DNA of 64,000 nucleotides. Origin: Planctomycetota bacterium (lineage in GTDB: Bacteria; Planctomycetota; Phycisphaerae; UBA1845). Location of the stretch: positions 1 through 64,000 of the forward strand of contig JAJRWX010000074.1 of the NCBI GenBank assembly GCA_024276605.1. Reading direction: 5' to 3'. Of this stretch, positions 3,113-32,684 are shown one piece after another; within the stretch, counting starts at the first letter, position 1; each line of letters starts with the position of its first letter. The notes below the pieces were generated by a model. It had not been told where the DNA came from. It searched no databases and saw only the letters and a list, made by a program, of their open reading frames with translations. The position numbers and the translations under genes are program-made.

Positions 3113-3851
3113 CCGCCTCCGTCATGCCCAAGAAAATTTCTTCGAGCGAATGCTCTTGTCTGGCCCGGGCTTTAAGCTCATCGAGCGTACCCATAGCCAC
3201 AAGCTTCCCATGATGGATAATGCCAATTCGATCAGCCACCGCCTCAGCGATGTCCAAAGTATGCGTACTCATAAACACCGAGCCACCCGCACGCGTGCGT
3301 TCTACGAATAGCTCCTTCACCGTACGAATACTTCTCGGATCAAGCCCCACCATCGGCTCATCAATGACCAATACCGTCGGCTCGTGCAATAGCGCCGCAG
3401 CAAGAACGACCTTTTGCTTCATGCCATGACTGTAATTTTCCGTGAGATGATCGATATACTCGCTAAAATCCAAACGGGCCATGAGATTGGCTATACGCTC
3501 ATCACGCTGCGCAATGGTCAGGTTGTACATTTCCGCTACGAAATAAAGAAACTCTCGCCCGGTCAATTTTTCATATAAAAACGGCTGATCCGGCACATAA
3601 GCAAGCTGCGCTTTCGCAGCAAGCCCATTGGTGCCGATGTGATGACCACACACCCGCACCTCACCGATATTGGGTTGGAGCAAACCAACAATCATCTTGA
3701 TCGTGGTGGTCTTTCCTGCACCATTAGGGCCAAGAAACGCAAAAAGTTCACCACGCTGCAATGTCAACGTCAGATTATCCACGGCTACCTTTGAGCCGTA
3801 ACACTTGCGCACGCCTTGCAATGAAACTGCCGGACTATCGTCTGTCGTCAT
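3099..3851 (-). CDS. ABC transporter ATP-binding protein
   Basis: 250 aa. Walker A GPNGAGKTT is at 41-49, the signature YSHGMKQK at 140-147 (a degenerate LSGGQ, usual in ABC-2 export ATPases), Walker B VLVIDEP at 160-166, and the switch histidine in STHT near 195. It energises the permease encoded by the overlapping downstream gene. The pair resembles the natural-product/lipid exporter class (CcmA/NatA-like). No solute-binding protein is present, which favours export. Confidence 0.93.
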   Translation of the reverse strand: MTTDDSPAVSLQGVRKCYGSKVAVDNLTLTLQRGELFAFLGPNGAGKTTTIKMIVGLLQPNIGEVRVCGHHIGTNGLAAKAQLAYVPDQPFLYEKLTGREFLYFVAEMYNLTIAQRDERIANLMARLDFSEYIDHLTENYSHGMKQKVVLAAALLHEPTVLVIDEPMVGLDPRSIRTVKELFVERTRAGGSVFMSTHTLDIAEAVADRIGIIHHGKLVAMGTLDELKARARQEHSLEEIFLGMTEADDGC

Positions 3852-6877: not shown

Positions 6878-8344
6878 ATGTTTTTCGTTTCGACTGGTTC
6901 ACCCTATAGGTGGATATTCAACATGTTGTGGTGGCATACAATCGGCCTTCTCTCTATCGCAGGTCTACTCATCGCCAAAGGCCTTCGTGGCAAATACATA
7001 GGCGACGAGCCTCGATGTAGGAAATGCCAAAGTAAGCTGCCAGATAGTTCAAGCAAAACATGCCCAACGTGTAACATACGTCTTGATGCTGACGACATCA
7101 TCGTAGGCAACAAGAAGATACAATGGCGTTGGATTCTGTCTGCGTGCCTTGTTCCACTTTTGTGGCAACCTACCATTGATCTCTACCGGCACTGGGAAGG
7201 CATGCATACTGAGCAATGGGTGTCTATCGATACAATCTTTCAGAAAGCGATAGCTGGGGATATTTCGGCACTAGAAGAACTAGATCGACGGATAAATTAC
7301 GAGCCACCCAACAAGCAAGACATCAGAAAAATCGCAGCGTACGCAGTCGCCCATCATGGCGGGTCACCTTTGGACGATGTCGGAAGAGGTTGGATCAACA
7401 TTGTCGATAGCCTTGACTTTGGCCGATATCTAACCTTAGAAGAGCAGAACCTAATTTTCCCTAAATATGCGCAAGCATCAATCACTTGCCGTGAGCATGT
7501 TCGTGTTGGCGATCCACTCCCCATTATGATTTCCTACGACAACTACAGAAATGGCATGTCCGGTTATAGATATTGGCATGAACCCGTGAGGGTACTCATC
7601 GATGATGTAATCGTGCTTGAAGGCTCTCCTGGTGCATGGCGCAAGCGTCAATACGACTGGATTCAATCCAGCACTTCATTATTAGGCTATATGCTCACTT
7701 ACGTATCAACTGATAACATTCGATTAGGCGCTCAGCAGGTACAGTATCAAGGAGTACATATTTTTAATAATCAACGATATGACGTTCAGATCAACAAACC
7801 CTCATGGACCGGTGAATTGGTACTCGAAACTACGGTGGAATTCCTACCCAAAGATAGTGAAGATTTGGTTACCTGGATAGATCGCCCCGAGCTTCTCTCA
7901 TTCATAAAATGGTCCCTAAATGTGGAATTGTCGGATCCTCAAGATTGGGGAGGGGCAATTCGAGTTTATCTCGACCATCTTCAATCTGATGATGAATCTA
8001 CATACTTACCTGTTAGCTGCGAATTACTTCAGACACTTCCAGTTCCTGTTGCCTTTGAATTTTTCATAGAAGCCGATTCTGATAATTATCCTGCCACCTT
8101 GATTAGTAGCCCATCTTTGTTCTACGCTAGAGATTACAATAATCTAGTTGCGTTCAAACCGGGTACAGCTTTTAGCGGTCTTTACATCCTCAAGGTACCT
8201 CGTTTACAGACTAATGAGATTCACATCATCCTGCGCGGCAGTAAAGAGGTCGCACGAAGAACCATTGATATGTACCAAGTTTGGAAGGGTGAATTGCGAT
8301 ACGGACCATTCAAACTTGATAGCAACCAACAAGAAAATCATTGA
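6878..8344 (+). CDS. membrane protein with a four-cysteine zinc ribbon
   Basis: 488 aa as the longest frame; a start at the ATG at 6923 (MLWWHTIG) would place a membrane helix directly at the N-terminus and may be the true one. CRKCQSKLPDSSSKTCPTCN gives two CxxC pairs, the zinc-ribbon style that many planctomycete proteins carry (compare 62318-62797). A second hydrophobic segment lies near residues 90-107, and the long C-terminal part is predicted extracytoplasmic, with no recognised domain. A+T content is higher than in purU next to it. The function is unknown. Confidence 0.65.
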   Translation: MFFVSTGSPYRWIFNMLWWHTIGLLSIAGLLIAKGLRGKYIGDEPRCRKCQSKLPDSSSKTCPTCNIRLDADDIIVGNKKIQWRWILSACLVPLLWQPTIDLYRHWEGMHTEQWVSIDTIFQKAIAGDISALEELDRRINYEPPNKQDIRKIAAYAVAHHGGSPLDDVGRGWINIVDSLDFGRYLTLEEQNLIFPKYAQASITCREHVRVGDPLPIMISYDNYRNGMSGYRYWHEPVRVLIDDVIVLEGSPGAWRKRQYDWIQSSTSLLGYMLTYVSTDNIRLGAQQVQYQGVHIFNNQRYDVQINKPSWTGELVLETTVEFLPKDSEDLVTWIDRPELLSFIKWSLNVELSDPQDWGGAIRVYLDHLQSDDESTYLPVSCELLQTLPVPVAFEFFIEADSDNYPATLISSPSLFYARDYNNLVAFKPGTAFSGLYILKVPRLQTNEIHIILRGSKEVARRTIDMYQVWKGELRYGPFKLDSNQQENH

Positions 8345-27929: not shown

Positions 27930-28880
27930 ATGGACATTCGCGATCCGCGTTTATTTGTGATGCGCGTTAGTTTAGCAGCTTCAGTAGTGATGCTAGTAGG
28001 AAAACTCCTAGCCTATTACCTTACGCATAGCGTAGCCCTCCTTTCTGATGCCGCCGAATCCGTCGTTCATGGGGTCGCCACCGGGCTAGCGACGTCTAGC
28101 TTATCATTCTCGGCGAAACCGGCTGACGCCAATCACCCCTACGGGCACGGACGTATCGCCTATTTCTCAGCCGGATTTGAAGGCGCACTGGTTCTTGTCG
28201 CCTCTTTTGCCGTCATCTACAGCGGCATCAGTGGTCTTTTCCATGAGCCACAACTGGAACATCTAGGTGTTGGACTGGCTATTTCGGGTGGTTTGGCGCT
28301 CATCAATCTAGCCCTTGGCTGGTCGTTGGTACATGTGGGCAACAAACACAACTCGCTAATTTTGATCGCCAACGGTAAGCATGTATTCTCCGACATGTGG
28401 ACCACGGTTGCTGCGATTTCCGGGCTTACCCTCGTGATGGCTACGGGGTGTATTTGGCTGGACCCCTTGGTCGCCATCCTCATTGGTAGCTACATCATGC
28501 TAACCGGTGCGTCGCTCATCCGTAAATCGTTCGCCGGGTTAATGGATGAACTGGATTCACAAACATTGAAAAAACTGGTAGGTGGGCTACAAGGTGCCGT
28601 CGATCGTGGTCATATTGTCGATTTCCACCAGCTTCGCTGTCGCAAAATCAATGACCAAATCTGGATTGACGTTCACGTATTGGTACCTGGCAATCTATCC
28701 ACCACTGACGCCCATGATCGTGTGACACAAGTGGAAACATCGCTACATGAGTTGTTCCCCAACACCCAGGTTGTGGTGACATCCCATATCGAACCGGCGG
28801 ATCATGAATCGGCGCACCCCGGCGGGCACGACGGTATTTCCGACCCACTGGAACCGACCCATCAGACGCGATCGTCATGA
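27930..28880 (+). CDS. cation diffusion facilitator family transporter
   Basis: 316 aa with about six membrane helices in the first 200 residues and a cytoplasmic C-terminal ferredoxin-like domain (about 215-290). HSVALLSDAAESVVH is the TM2 metal-site region and KHVFSDMWTTV the TM5 HxxxD site; FHQLRCRKINDQIWIDVHVLVP is the typical C-domain block. It should export Zn2+, Fe2+, Co2+ or similar ions by proton antiport in the inner membrane. The tail is rich in His, Gly and Pro. The metal specificity is not readable. Confidence 0.92.
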   Translation: MDIRDPRLFVMRVSLAASVVMLVGKLLAYYLTHSVALLSDAAESVVHGVATGLATSSLSFSAKPADANHPYGHGRIAYFSAGFEGALVLVASFAVIYSGISGLFHEPQLEHLGVGLAISGGLALINLALGWSLVHVGNKHNSLILIANGKHVFSDMWTTVAAISGLTLVMATGCIWLDPLVAILIGSYIMLTGASLIRKSFAGLMDELDSQTLKKLVGGLQGAVDRGHIVDFHQLRCRKINDQIWIDVHVLVPGNLSTTDAHDRVTQVETSLHELFPNTQVVVTSHIEPADHESAHPGGHDGISDPLEPTHQTRSS

Positions 28881-29121: not shown

Positions 29122-29964
29122 TTACCAACGATATCGCCAGCCAACCGAAAAACGATAATCGGTTTCGACGGTGTTGCCGCCTAACTCCTGAACGGTTGGT
29201 AATTGAAACGATGCTTCCCAGGTCCATTGCTGAGAGGTGTATTGTATACCAGGTGCTAGAAAAATCTCATGTATACCGTCGGTACGATAGCGCCCATTCA
29301 ACTCAGCCACTATGCTCCATTGGGTGGGTGTCGTTGCATCAAAGGTTTCAGGATGGATGCGATAGGAATAGGCCATATCATAGAGAAGGGTATCGTGGTC
29401 AAAATCGCCGTCGCCTGTATTGATCCGATAGACCAAATCCGCGTCAAATACATGACGATTATTTCGCCACGAATAAACAACCCCTACTATGGGATCATAA
29501 CTATCGCTGGAAAAGTCACTATCCCCGTTACTCAGGTTCACACCTAACAACCCCGCTAAACGCCTCGTCCGTAACGGCCCTTCGTCCAATTGCCAGAATC
29601 GGTACTTTAACAAGAGCGTCGTATCAGCCGGTCCGTCGCGCCGGTCTTCGACATGCCCCTCTCTTCTATCGTAAACCTGCTGTTCTCGATACACATAAGG
29701 CACATTGAGAATGAGCGCCAAATCAGCCTCCAAACCCAACACCAACGCCACGCGAGCAACAGAAGTCTGAACTTGCCGAATATCTCGCGCACGACCATAA
29801 CCCTGGGCATCGGCATAGGAATATTGCATACGCAACACACCACCACCCTTTCGGGGTGTGAAAGCCACGTCACTATTGATAGGCCCAGCCAGTAACTTTG
29901 GCGACGGAGCAACTACCGTCGCCATGACTAATGTATACACTGCTCGCTTTTGATATTTGCTCAT
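29122..29964 (-). CDS. predicted outer-membrane beta-barrel protein (phenol MetA-pathway-like)
   Basis: 280 aa. A signal peptide is likely at 1-26 (ending PSPKLLAGP). The rest is alternating amphipathic strands ending in an aromatic C-terminal strand (YRFSVGWRYRW), typical of outer-membrane barrels. The blocks RMQYSYADAQGYGR, LILNVPYVYREQ, DTTLLLKYRFW and GVNLSNGDSDFSSDSYDP resemble the 'MetA-pathway of phenol degradation / transporter' Pfam group, whose real role is usually unknown. It begins 46 bp after the stop of the HMA selenoprotein gene on the same strand, so the two probably form one transcript. Confidence 0.8.
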   Translation of the reverse strand: MSKYQKRAVYTLVMATVVAPSPKLLAGPINSDVAFTPRKGGGVLRMQYSYADAQGYGRARDIRQVQTSVARVALVLGLEADLALILNVPYVYREQQVYDRREGHVEDRRDGPADTTLLLKYRFWQLDEGPLRTRRLAGLLGVNLSNGDSDFSSDSYDPIVGVVYSWRNNRHVFDADLVYRINTGDGDFDHDTLLYDMAYSYRIHPETFDATTPTQWSIVAELNGRYRTDGIHEIFLAPGIQYTSQQWTWEASFQLPTVQELGGNTVETDYRFSVGWRYRW

Positions 29965-30010: not shown

Positions 30011-30370
30011 CTAATCAGGCCTAGCGTTATACGTCTTTCCAGGCATCTTTAATCTTACCGGTGTGAATCCGGCATCTATGATCCCCTGCCATATCTTTTG
30101 CGCATCCGGTACTTCGTCCGGCGAGAAAAAGATGGAGACCTCACCAGTGTTCAAGTCAACATAGACATCATGCACATGTTTAACGCGCTCGACCGAGCGA
30201 CGAATCCCGAAGGCTCAGCCCGGTCATGTAATGCCGCGTACGAGTATCATGGCATCCGGTTTAGACTTGGGGTGTGCATGCTTTGTTGCAGGCTCACCGG
30301 AGGTAGCACAGCCACCCAACAAGCACGAGAATGCTAGTGAGGTGGCGAAAAACATAACTTGACGATGCAT
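30011..30370 (-). CDS. predicted HMA-domain lipoprotein, selenoprotein with UxxU motif
   Basis: Reading from the ATG at 30370, which follows a strong AGGAG 8 bases upstream, gives 119 residues to a TAG at 30011-30013, interrupted only by two in-frame TGA codons at 30224-30226 (residue 49) and 30215-30217 (residue 52). The N-terminus is a lipoprotein signal (FFATSLAFSCLLGGC, Cys21). Residues 41-105 are a heavy-metal-associated (MerP/CopZ-fold) domain: ILVRGIT-U-PG-U-AFGIRRSV, then VYVDLNTGEVSIFF and IIDAGFTPV. In known members the TxCxxC cysteines fall exactly where the two TGA lie. With the SECIS-like hairpin at 30184-30202, the simplest reading is selenocysteine at both metal ligands. The protein should be tethered to a membrane outside the cytoplasm and bind a soft metal or undergo UxxU redox. 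The alternative is a pseudogene with two nonsense mutations placed by chance. Genome-wide selA/selB/selC/selD were not available to confirm. Confidence 0.82.
30184..30202 (-). promoter_or_regulatory. bacterial SECIS-like hairpin inside the HMA gene
   Basis: On the mRNA, 12 nt after the second UGA, CG-U-CGCUC pairs with GAGCG-CG around the tetraloop GGUC (30191-30194), leaving a single bulged U on the 5' side. E. coli fdhF has the same GGUC loop and a bulged U, with 18 nt between UGA and loop; here the distance is 20 nt from the second UGA and 29 nt from the first, which suits SelB recognition. The pairing was drawn by eye and not scored. Confidence 0.7.
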
Positions 30371-30478
30371 CGTAAGAACTCCTGATTCATGTTCTATTAC
30401 ATATCAACCGAGCGACGCTGCACCCGTCCCAAAGTACATTGGGATTCTGGGAATGAACGATTGGACATCATCCAAAAA

Positions 30479-30554: not shown

Positions 30555-32684
30555 CTAGGCGGACGATACCATAACCGATCGCGTTTGGGAAATCGCAGCT
30601 CGTCTTAATAGTAACAACGCCACAACGACAGCCACGCAACCCACGATGAGCATTGGCCAAGGTAGATGCGCACCCTCTTGAAGTGTAATCCCCATACTTT
30701 CAAACATAGCTGGTTTGACCACCGACATCACTGCAAGCGTATTGTGCATAGCATGGGCGATGATCGCGGGCCAAATAGATTGTGATTGCCAACAGAGATA
30801 ACCCAGCACCACGCCCAGCATAGCCGTGACGAGAAACTTGAAGATCATAAAATGGAAGACACCAAAAATGGCTGCACTCGCTAAGATCGCGGTCCACTTC
30901 CGCGCTGAGGATGACAGTCCGCCCATTAAAAATCCACGGAAAAGCAACTCCTCGCAGACGGCTGGTATCACCGCGATCATCAATATCACACCACCAAACG
31001 GCAATGCTTGCAATGTTTCAGCCATCGACTCCGCCTGCTCAACCACCGCTTGTGGCAGACCCAACAAGCCATACTGGATGAGATTTAATTCATGCGCCGG
31101 TATCCACATACAACATCCTAGCAATATGGCTGCCGCCAGGTGACGCGCTTTGGGCACTTTAATAAATAGCGATTGCTTAGCGCTGACTTTCCAATATGTC
31201 AGCATTAGCAGTGGCATCAACACAAACAATAGCGGCATCAGCCAGGCAGACGCTTCTAATAATCCCCCTATGTTTTCATCCACAGCCGGTGACAAAGCTG
31301 ATTGAATAAAAAACCACGTGGGAAACAGCAGGGAAACATATAACATGCTCATGGCTACGGATGGTTGACGTGCCGGCTTGATCAAGTTCCGTGAGAACAA
31401 CGTCTTCAACGAACCGCTATCCGCAAAAACCACGGACTCCTTACCAAACAAAGTTGCCGCAATCGCCACCGCCGCCACCGCATACAGCGTCGTCGAAAAT
31501 AACACCGTCAACAGATGCCCCAACGGTACGGCACTGCCCAACAGTAATTCCCGCGTCAACAGCACCATATTCCCTACCGGCAACACCAACATCACACCAT
31601 CCAACCGCGCAGCAGGCAACGCAGCCATCCCTCCCGGTAACAGGGCGGCAAGAATGACAGGCGTCACATAGTTCTGCGCTTCCTTAAACGTCCGAGCAAA
31701 ACTGCAAACGGCAAGCATCATGGCGGACATCAGTACGGCAAATGGAATCAAACAAACAAGGATGAGCAACATCGTCACCAACGGTAAACCTTCGCCACTG
31801 GTCGCTATGAGCATATCAAAACCGCCGAAGTAAACCGTGGCTGTGACGGATGCGAGATTTAGCGTGGCCCCCATAATGGCTACGGTGGTCACGACGAGAA
31901 ACTTACCGACAATCAAATCGATCACCGGCACGGGACACACCATGAGCGACTCCAGCGTCCCCCGTTCTCTCTCTCCAGCGGTCAAATCAATAGCCGGATA
32001 AATCGCACCGGTAATGGTCATGAGAATCAAAATCAACGGCAAAATTTGCCCCAGAATTGATTGCGGCGCCGACAGATTCACGAACTCAATATCGAATGGC
32101 CGATCGAAGTTGGCAGGCAGGGCCGCTCTTTTTTTGCGCTGATCGACTAATCGATCGCTGAGACGCTTAAACATTTTCTCTAACCGATTCGTCACATATT
32201 GACCGCGAATCTCAGCTTCGTCCGACAATATGGTAACCCCGTTTTGTTGATCGATCGCTTTCAAAAATTCGTTTGAATCAAATAAAATACCTAAATGAAT
32301 CGCTCGTTCACGAATGTTCACACGCAGGGCTGCTTCAGACTTGATCGGAATGATCTTGACCAATTCCACCAGAGGCGCAGCGGCTTCATCATCCGGATGT
32401 GATGCCACACGCTCGTCAATAGGCTTCTCTTGAGCAGCCAACATCGCATCCCACTGAAGTAAATACGTCAGCAGATCCTTTTGTTTATGCCCGACCACAC
32501 CAATGATATACTTCTCTTTGTTCAGCGAGGATTCCTGAATAGTGACCGCCTGCAACGAACCAACCATCAGCAACGGGTACAATACGATGGGCACAACGAT
32601 CATCGCGATCAGCGTGCGGCGGTCCCGCAGGATATCGAGTAATTCTTTTTGATAGATGGTGCGGATGCGATGTAGCGAACTCAT
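30555..32684 (-). CDS. ABC-2 permease fused to a CPBP intramembrane protease
   Basis: 709 aa. Residues 1-430 are an ABC-2/NatB-type permease with a large extracytoplasmic loop after the first helix (about 45-230) and helices thereafter (TAGERERGTLESLMVCPV is the typical permease coupling block). Residues about 460-690 are a CPBP (CAAX-protease-like) domain with CEELLFRGFLMGG (EExxxR), FGVFHFMIFK (FxxxH) and HAMHN. Such fusions occur in NatAB-like sodium or drug exporters. Its ATG overlaps the stop of the upstream ATPase gene (ATGA, 32681-32684), so the two subunits are made together. Confidence 0.9.
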   Translation of the reverse strand: MSSLHRIRTIYQKELLDILRDRRTLIAMIVVPIVLYPLLMVGSLQAVTIQESSLNKEKYIIGVVGHKQKDLLTYLLQWDAMLAAQEKPIDERVASHPDDEAAAPLVELVKIIPIKSEAALRVNIRERAIHLGILFDSNEFLKAIDQQNGVTILSDEAEIRGQYVTNRLEKMFKRLSDRLVDQRKKRAALPANFDRPFDIEFVNLSAPQSILGQILPLILILMTITGAIYPAIDLTAGERERGTLESLMVCPVPVIDLIVGKFLVVTTVAIMGATLNLASVTATVYFGGFDMLIATSGEGLPLVTMLLILVCLIPFAVLMSAMMLAVCSFARTFKEAQNYVTPVILAALLPGGMAALPAARLDGVMLVLPVGNMVLLTRELLLGSAVPLGHLLTVLFSTTLYAVAAVAIAATLFGKESVVFADSGSLKTLFSRNLIKPARQPSVAMSMLYVSLLFPTWFFIQSALSPAVDENIGGLLEASAWLMPLLFVLMPLLMLTYWKVSAKQSLFIKVPKARHLAAAILLGCCMWIPAHELNLIQYGLLGLPQAVVEQAESMAETLQALPFGGVILMIAVIPAVCEELLFRGFLMGGLSSSARKWTAILASAAIFGVFHFMIFKFLVTAMLGVVLGYLCWQSQSIWPAIIAHAMHNTLAVMSVVKPAMFESMGITLQEGAHLPWPMLIVGCVAVVVALLLLRRAAISQTRSVMVSSA

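Follow-up and report, generated by a model that had tools for sequence, protein, structure and literature searches.

A candidate planctomycete selenoprotein with selenocysteine at both metal-ligand positions of an HMA-domain lipoprotein

The stretch of DNA analysed here (the window) is 64,000 nucleotides of a Planctomycetota genome and carries, on the minus strand at 30370..30011, a gene that almost certainly encodes a functional selenoprotein. The predicted product is a lipoprotein of 119 residues with an HMA (heavy-metal-associated) domain in which two selenocysteines, U49 and U52, would stand in place of the two cysteines of its relatives. The account as a whole, in which the selenoprotein is made with the help of one shared SECIS element and has a soft-metal role together with an outer-membrane barrel partner, is given a probability of about 0.85.

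Gene, in-frame TGA codons and selenocysteine machinery

The reading frame begins with an ATG at 30370, 8 nt downstream of a Shine-Dalgarno sequence, AGGAG (30379..30383), and ends with a TAG stop at 30011-30013. Direct reading of the translation gives a lipoprotein signal peptide (30308..30370) with the lipobox LLGGC and a predicted lipidated residue, Cys21; the Gly-Cys pair of the lipobox is invariant in 17 of 17 aligned members of the HMA lipoprotein set. The sequence is best explained by export of the product and lipidation at Cys21, with the mature form held in a membrane and exposed to the periplasm. Residues 44–102 (30065..30241) match the Pfam HMA family PF00403 with E=8.3e-9 and a score of 36.2 bits, above the gathering threshold of 24.8 bits. 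In the AlphaFold model residues 41–110 have a pLDDT of about 95–98 and form the beta-alpha-beta-beta-alpha-beta arrangement of the predicted ferredoxin-like fold, and the best matches in the PDB are MerP and CopZ. When TGA is read as U, the translation is MHRQVMFFATSLAFSCLLGGCATSGE...ILVRGIT-U-PG-U-AFGIRRSVER... and the only stops inside the frame are the two TGA codons, codon 49 at 30224..30226 and codon 52 at 30215..30217. Both fall on ligand positions of the CxxC motif of the HMA domain (GIT-U-PG-U-AFGI), U49 as the first ligand and U52 as the second. The first-pass annotation had described a complete gene with AGGAG, a lipoprotein signal, an HMA domain and a normal stop, and this description is borne out, with the gene on the minus strand.

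Homologues were surveyed in 396 related genomes and the members were then read in frame. Two genomes of the same genus have both TGAs at identical codons in genes whose products are 72% and 67% identical to that of the window. Ten additional genomes of the order also have the form with two TGAs, and four genomes have a CxxU form. Outside the genome of the window, at least one of the two TGAs (UxxU or CxxU) is present in 15 genomes of the order and in one more of the class. The selenocysteine-form motifs of the family and order include UPGU, UPFU, UGGU, UGNU, ULGU and URPU, and in four members the motif is CPFU, encoded with TGC or TGT as the first codon and TGA as the second. Distant homologues have CPLC, CPQC and similar motifs without TGA. 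In the members read, the residue that alternates with TGA is Cys only and never Trp. The earlier proposal that the TGAs lie exactly on the metal-site cysteines thus agrees with the homologues, which have either TGA or TGC/TGT at each of these positions. In the tree, 16 of the selenocysteine members group together with a support of 89/99, and the CxxU member L051 sits among the CxxC forms, a placement that suggests a separate origin of its selenocysteine form.

A dead HMA gene with two nonsense mutations, or an assembly error, would equally give two in-frame stops, and gene-calling software would split or overlook such a gene. Against a pseudogene, the two TGAs recur at these positions in genomes of many genera that were assembled independently, the frame is free of disrupting mutations in close relatives, and among the three same-genus genes the codons 3' of the TGAs have a dN/dS of 0.10–0.16 at a dS of about 1.2, which indicates purifying selection on the codons that follow the two stops. 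With the selenocysteine machinery present as well, this explanation has almost nothing left to recommend it. Chance or sequencing error was considered as a separate candidate and is ruled out by the recurrence of the same two TGAs in the two same-genus genomes and many others.

All four components of that machinery, selA, selB, selC and selD, for which the first-pass annotation had suggested a search, are in the same genome (4.5 Mb, 96% complete). The selA and selD matches score 569 and 367 bits, and selC (tRNA-Sec) scores 64.8 bits, above its gathering score, with ARAGORN in agreement and an anticodon of TCA. The selD gene (L020, G000:C110:14656-15579, minus strand) has its own in-frame TGA, at SCAG-U-AGKLP, so a second gene appears to use the selenocysteine system and SelD of this genome is probably itself a selenoprotein. 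Among genomes with TGA forms, selA was found in 19 of 22, and the three in which it was missed are only 75–80% complete; among genomes with CxxC forms only, it was found in 4 of 14 (Fisher p=0.0009 within the set searched, relatedness being ignored). Conserved TGAs, purifying selection and the machinery together uphold the original preference for selenocysteine over nonsense mutation. A genome-wide change of code, with TGA read as tryptophan or another residue, draws on nothing beyond the open frame and is hardly conceivable, because TGA is still an ordinary stop in the window, where 12 of the 36 non-overlapping ORFs with at least 250 aa terminate in it; the aligned residue in relatives and the TCA anticodon of the tRNA-Sec also stand against it.

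SECIS-like hairpins downstream of the UGA codons

A bacterial SECIS-like hairpin, CGCTC-GGTC-GAGCG, is located at 30186..30199 on the minus strand, where it encodes the peptide RSVER; it was characterized by folding, codon conservation and a pattern search. The hairpin starts 15 nt past the second TGA, and its loop lies 29 nt after the first TGA and 20 nt after the second. The bSECIS model of PMC13188914 has a loop of 3–9 nt with G in the first two positions, a stem of 4–16 bp, a distance of 16–37 nt from the UGA and a minimum free energy of -7.5 or lower. With a 5-bp stem, the 4-nt loop GGUC and an energy of -8.9 kcal/mol, the hairpin agrees with these published rules for both UGAs. The codons CGC TCG GTC GAG CGC are identical in 12 of the 15 genes that encode RSVER, as compared with an expected share of 0.6% per gene (calculated from the codon usage of the partner gene and ignoring relatedness), and the selenocysteine members show hardly any synonymous variation within the hairpin. 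Both the hairpin codons and the RSVER peptide are missing from CxxC members, and it therefore seems that the RNA dictates the peptide. It would be a clear example of a protein sequence that is set by RNA structure.

In L029 the stem is maintained by compensatory changes, and in L051 a different hairpin, TCGGCA-GTT-TGCCGA, occupies the same place. In-register covariation in the set to which the window belongs is thin, with two cells in which both sides are changed, because the hairpin hardly varies. When the 59 nt that follow the first TGA of the window are folded alone, a different structure is preferred over the hairpin and z is only -1.0; the hairpin is dominant only when the fold leaves out everything up to the second UGA. 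We infer that a ribosome decoding the UGA would melt the rival fold of this stretch. A search of 257 Gb of genomes with the two codons and the hairpin as a DNA pattern gave 17 matching stretches, of which 14 belong to Planctomycetota records; three non-planctomycete ones (L112, L120 and L124), when read in frame, contained no HMA genes.

In the proposed mechanism, SelB and tRNA-Sec would read both in-frame UGAs as selenocysteine, and the one hairpin, being within SECIS range of both, would direct both insertions. It might instead be that efficient decoding is confined to the second UGA, or that each UGA has a separate signal, so that the first mostly terminates translation and full-length UxxU protein is a minor, selenium-dependent product. 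The four CxxU members, which retain just the second UGA, and an outlying set of genes with two hairpins (described below) are in favour of this possibility, but the first UGA is retained in 13 of 17 aligned members and the loop is inside the published range of 16–37 nt from both UGAs, which makes inefficient reading of the first UGA rather improbable. With decoding of both UGAs through one hairpin as the preferred reading, the gene is a compact natural system for testing whether a single bacterial SECIS suffices for two closely spaced UGAs.

The outlying set comprises UxxU HMA lipoproteins of other planctomycete families, together with one (L067, genome G103) from the same order as the window, and has two hairpins 3' of the UGAs. 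In the eight aligned members (L067, L101, L102 and L105–L109), 92.6% of cells are paired as compared with 34–53% for slid structures, and the covariation score is 0.355 as compared with at most 0.134, with 12 cells in which both sides are changed. The two hairpins abut and, by manual reading, the loop of the second, about 32 nt after the second UGA, has G and then G or U at its first positions. Judged from the aligned sequences, the pair of hairpins is a putative second SECIS layout for the same kind of protein.

Partner barrel, neighbourhood and proposed function

A gene for a 280-residue outer-membrane beta-barrel of the Phenol_MetA_deg/COG4313-like type lies 46 nt 3' of the lipoprotein gene on the same strand (29122..29964, minus) and was identified from Pfam matches, neighbourhoods and an AlphaFold model (pLDDT 83). 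The structures closest to the model are FapF and the COG4313 outer-membrane channel 4rl8 (TM score about 0.65). The barrel shares its fold with the COG4313/Phenol_MetA_deg channel but is only 12% identical to 4rl8 and, as a further difference, is accompanied by an HMA lipoprotein in all of the neighbourhoods examined. A barrel homologue adjoins the HMA gene in 20 of 20 neighbourhoods, for selenocysteine and cysteine forms alike, and in the eight outlying UxxU loci, one of which (L067) is shared with the 20, it is upstream of the HMA gene. Pfam and neighbourhood comparison also identified a convergent gene for a cation diffusion facilitator (Cation_efflux) at 27930..28880 on the plus strand. 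The two same-genus genomes have it beside the pair too, and a functional link to the pair is possible but unproven.

Other metal-related genes appear at loci of relatives. Four of these loci have MerR-type regulators and a CopZ-N/MerT/HMA fusion. At L109 (7049-8995, minus strand) a fusion of a CopZ-N zinc domain, MerT, two HMA domains and thioredoxin is encoded beside the barrel and UxxU HMA genes, and at L106 (8881-11001) CusB-like (HlyD_D23) and CusA-like (ACR_tran) genes are downstream of the barrel/UxxU HMA pair. In the genome of the window, a search for CopZ-N found none and its control worked, and a search for MerT gave no match, with its control silent as well; the link to mercury thus comes only from the neighbours of relatives.

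Soft metals are bound more strongly by selenols than by thiols. The U-P-G-U site on the HMA domain would be expected to bind a soft thiophilic metal ion tighter or faster than CxxC does, and the neighbouring outer-membrane barrel would be the partner channel, presumably in physical contact with the lipoprotein. The two proteins together most likely transport a soft metal at the outer membrane or sequester it there, probably as a means of detoxification, with Hg(II) as the first guess for the metal and Cu(I) as the second; metal and direction of transport are alike conjectural. The chances that the lipoprotein acts as a metal shuttle to the channel seem about even. The most specific form of the proposal, a soft-metal relay in which the lipid-anchored UxxU HMA protein gives Hg(II) or Cu(I) to a dedicated outer-membrane channel while one SECIS decodes two UGAs, with starts 9 nt apart, and dictates the RSVER of the metal-binding helix, is put forward tentatively. 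The first-pass annotation called the protein diselenide-capable; since four members have CxxU, a diselenide is not needed by the whole family.

The protein could also be a genuine selenoprotein with a redox function in the periplasm, as a thiol oxidoreductase or in diselenide/selenol exchange, and the barrel could be unrelated to it or a channel for its substrate. According to PMC9312934, almost all prokaryotic selenoproteins of known function have redox or antioxidant roles, many with UxxC/UxxU-type motifs, and the thioredoxin fused to CopZ-N, MerT and two HMA domains at one related locus is in keeping with such a role. However, the domain is HMA, a metal-transfer fold that is not thioredoxin-like, and relatives have metal genes (MerR, MerT and CusBA) in the neighbourhood, so that a redox function is considered unlikely. 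Discussions of selenocysteine usually treat it as a redox residue, and its presence at both ligands of a channel-coupled metal-transfer site of the envelope, as preferred here, would show selenium as a metal ligand.

In addition to the barrel, all three same-genus genomes, including that of the window (30555-32684, minus strand), have directly 5' of the selenoprotein gene a gene for an ABC-2 permease fused to a CPBP/Rce1-like protease.

Relation to known families and variation among members

The first-pass annotation was in doubt as to whether UxxU HMA proteins had been described, and they are in fact already on record, as the NCBIfam family NF041115 and in PMC13188914 and PMC9312934. NF041115 (UxxU_metal_bind), a metal-binding selenoprotein first listed as a 'putative mercuric reductase' of an Olavius symbiont, shares with the lipoprotein an HMA-type domain in which both metal-site cysteines are replaced by selenocysteine (UxxU). 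Its model, however, has 74 positions, about one HMA domain, whereas the protein of the window has in addition a lipoprotein signal and a barrel partner, and the lipoprotein scores 34.0 bits against it, below the curated cutoff of 95. MerP (TIGR02052) and CopZ-Atx1 have the same HMA fold and two-ligand site and are the best structural matches, but their ligands are cysteines, whereas those of the membrane-anchored lipoprotein would be selenocysteines; the score with TIGR02052 is 20.8 bits, below the equivalog cutoff of 92.55. NF045683, a MerT/CopZ fusion-like heavy metal transport selenoprotein, resembles the lipoprotein in its selenocysteine-containing, metal-transport HMA context but is a membrane fusion with MerT of 235 positions, whereas the lipoprotein stands alone and scores 20 bits as compared with a cutoff of 375.

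Because it does not reach the cutoff of any NCBI family model tested, the gene has probably been overlooked in annotations of planctomycete genomes or marked there as broken. The literature searched, in which subscription journals were thinly covered, did not describe a lipoprotein form, a partner barrel or such a family in planctomycetes. Given the missed NF041115 cutoff, we call the proteins a new subfamily, on sequence grounds a lipid-anchored and channel-coupled one with two UGAs that would be served by one SECIS.

Two genomes have tandem UxxU HMA lipoprotein genes, at L054:7401-7754 and 7894-8223 and at L061:2728-3048 and 3335-3523, and the second copy of L061 has a single motif TGA in the stretch read. 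Three CxxC homologues (L036, L037 and L049) have a cysteine-rich C-terminal tail, e.g. TCSSCTCENCRCN, which is perhaps a second metal site.
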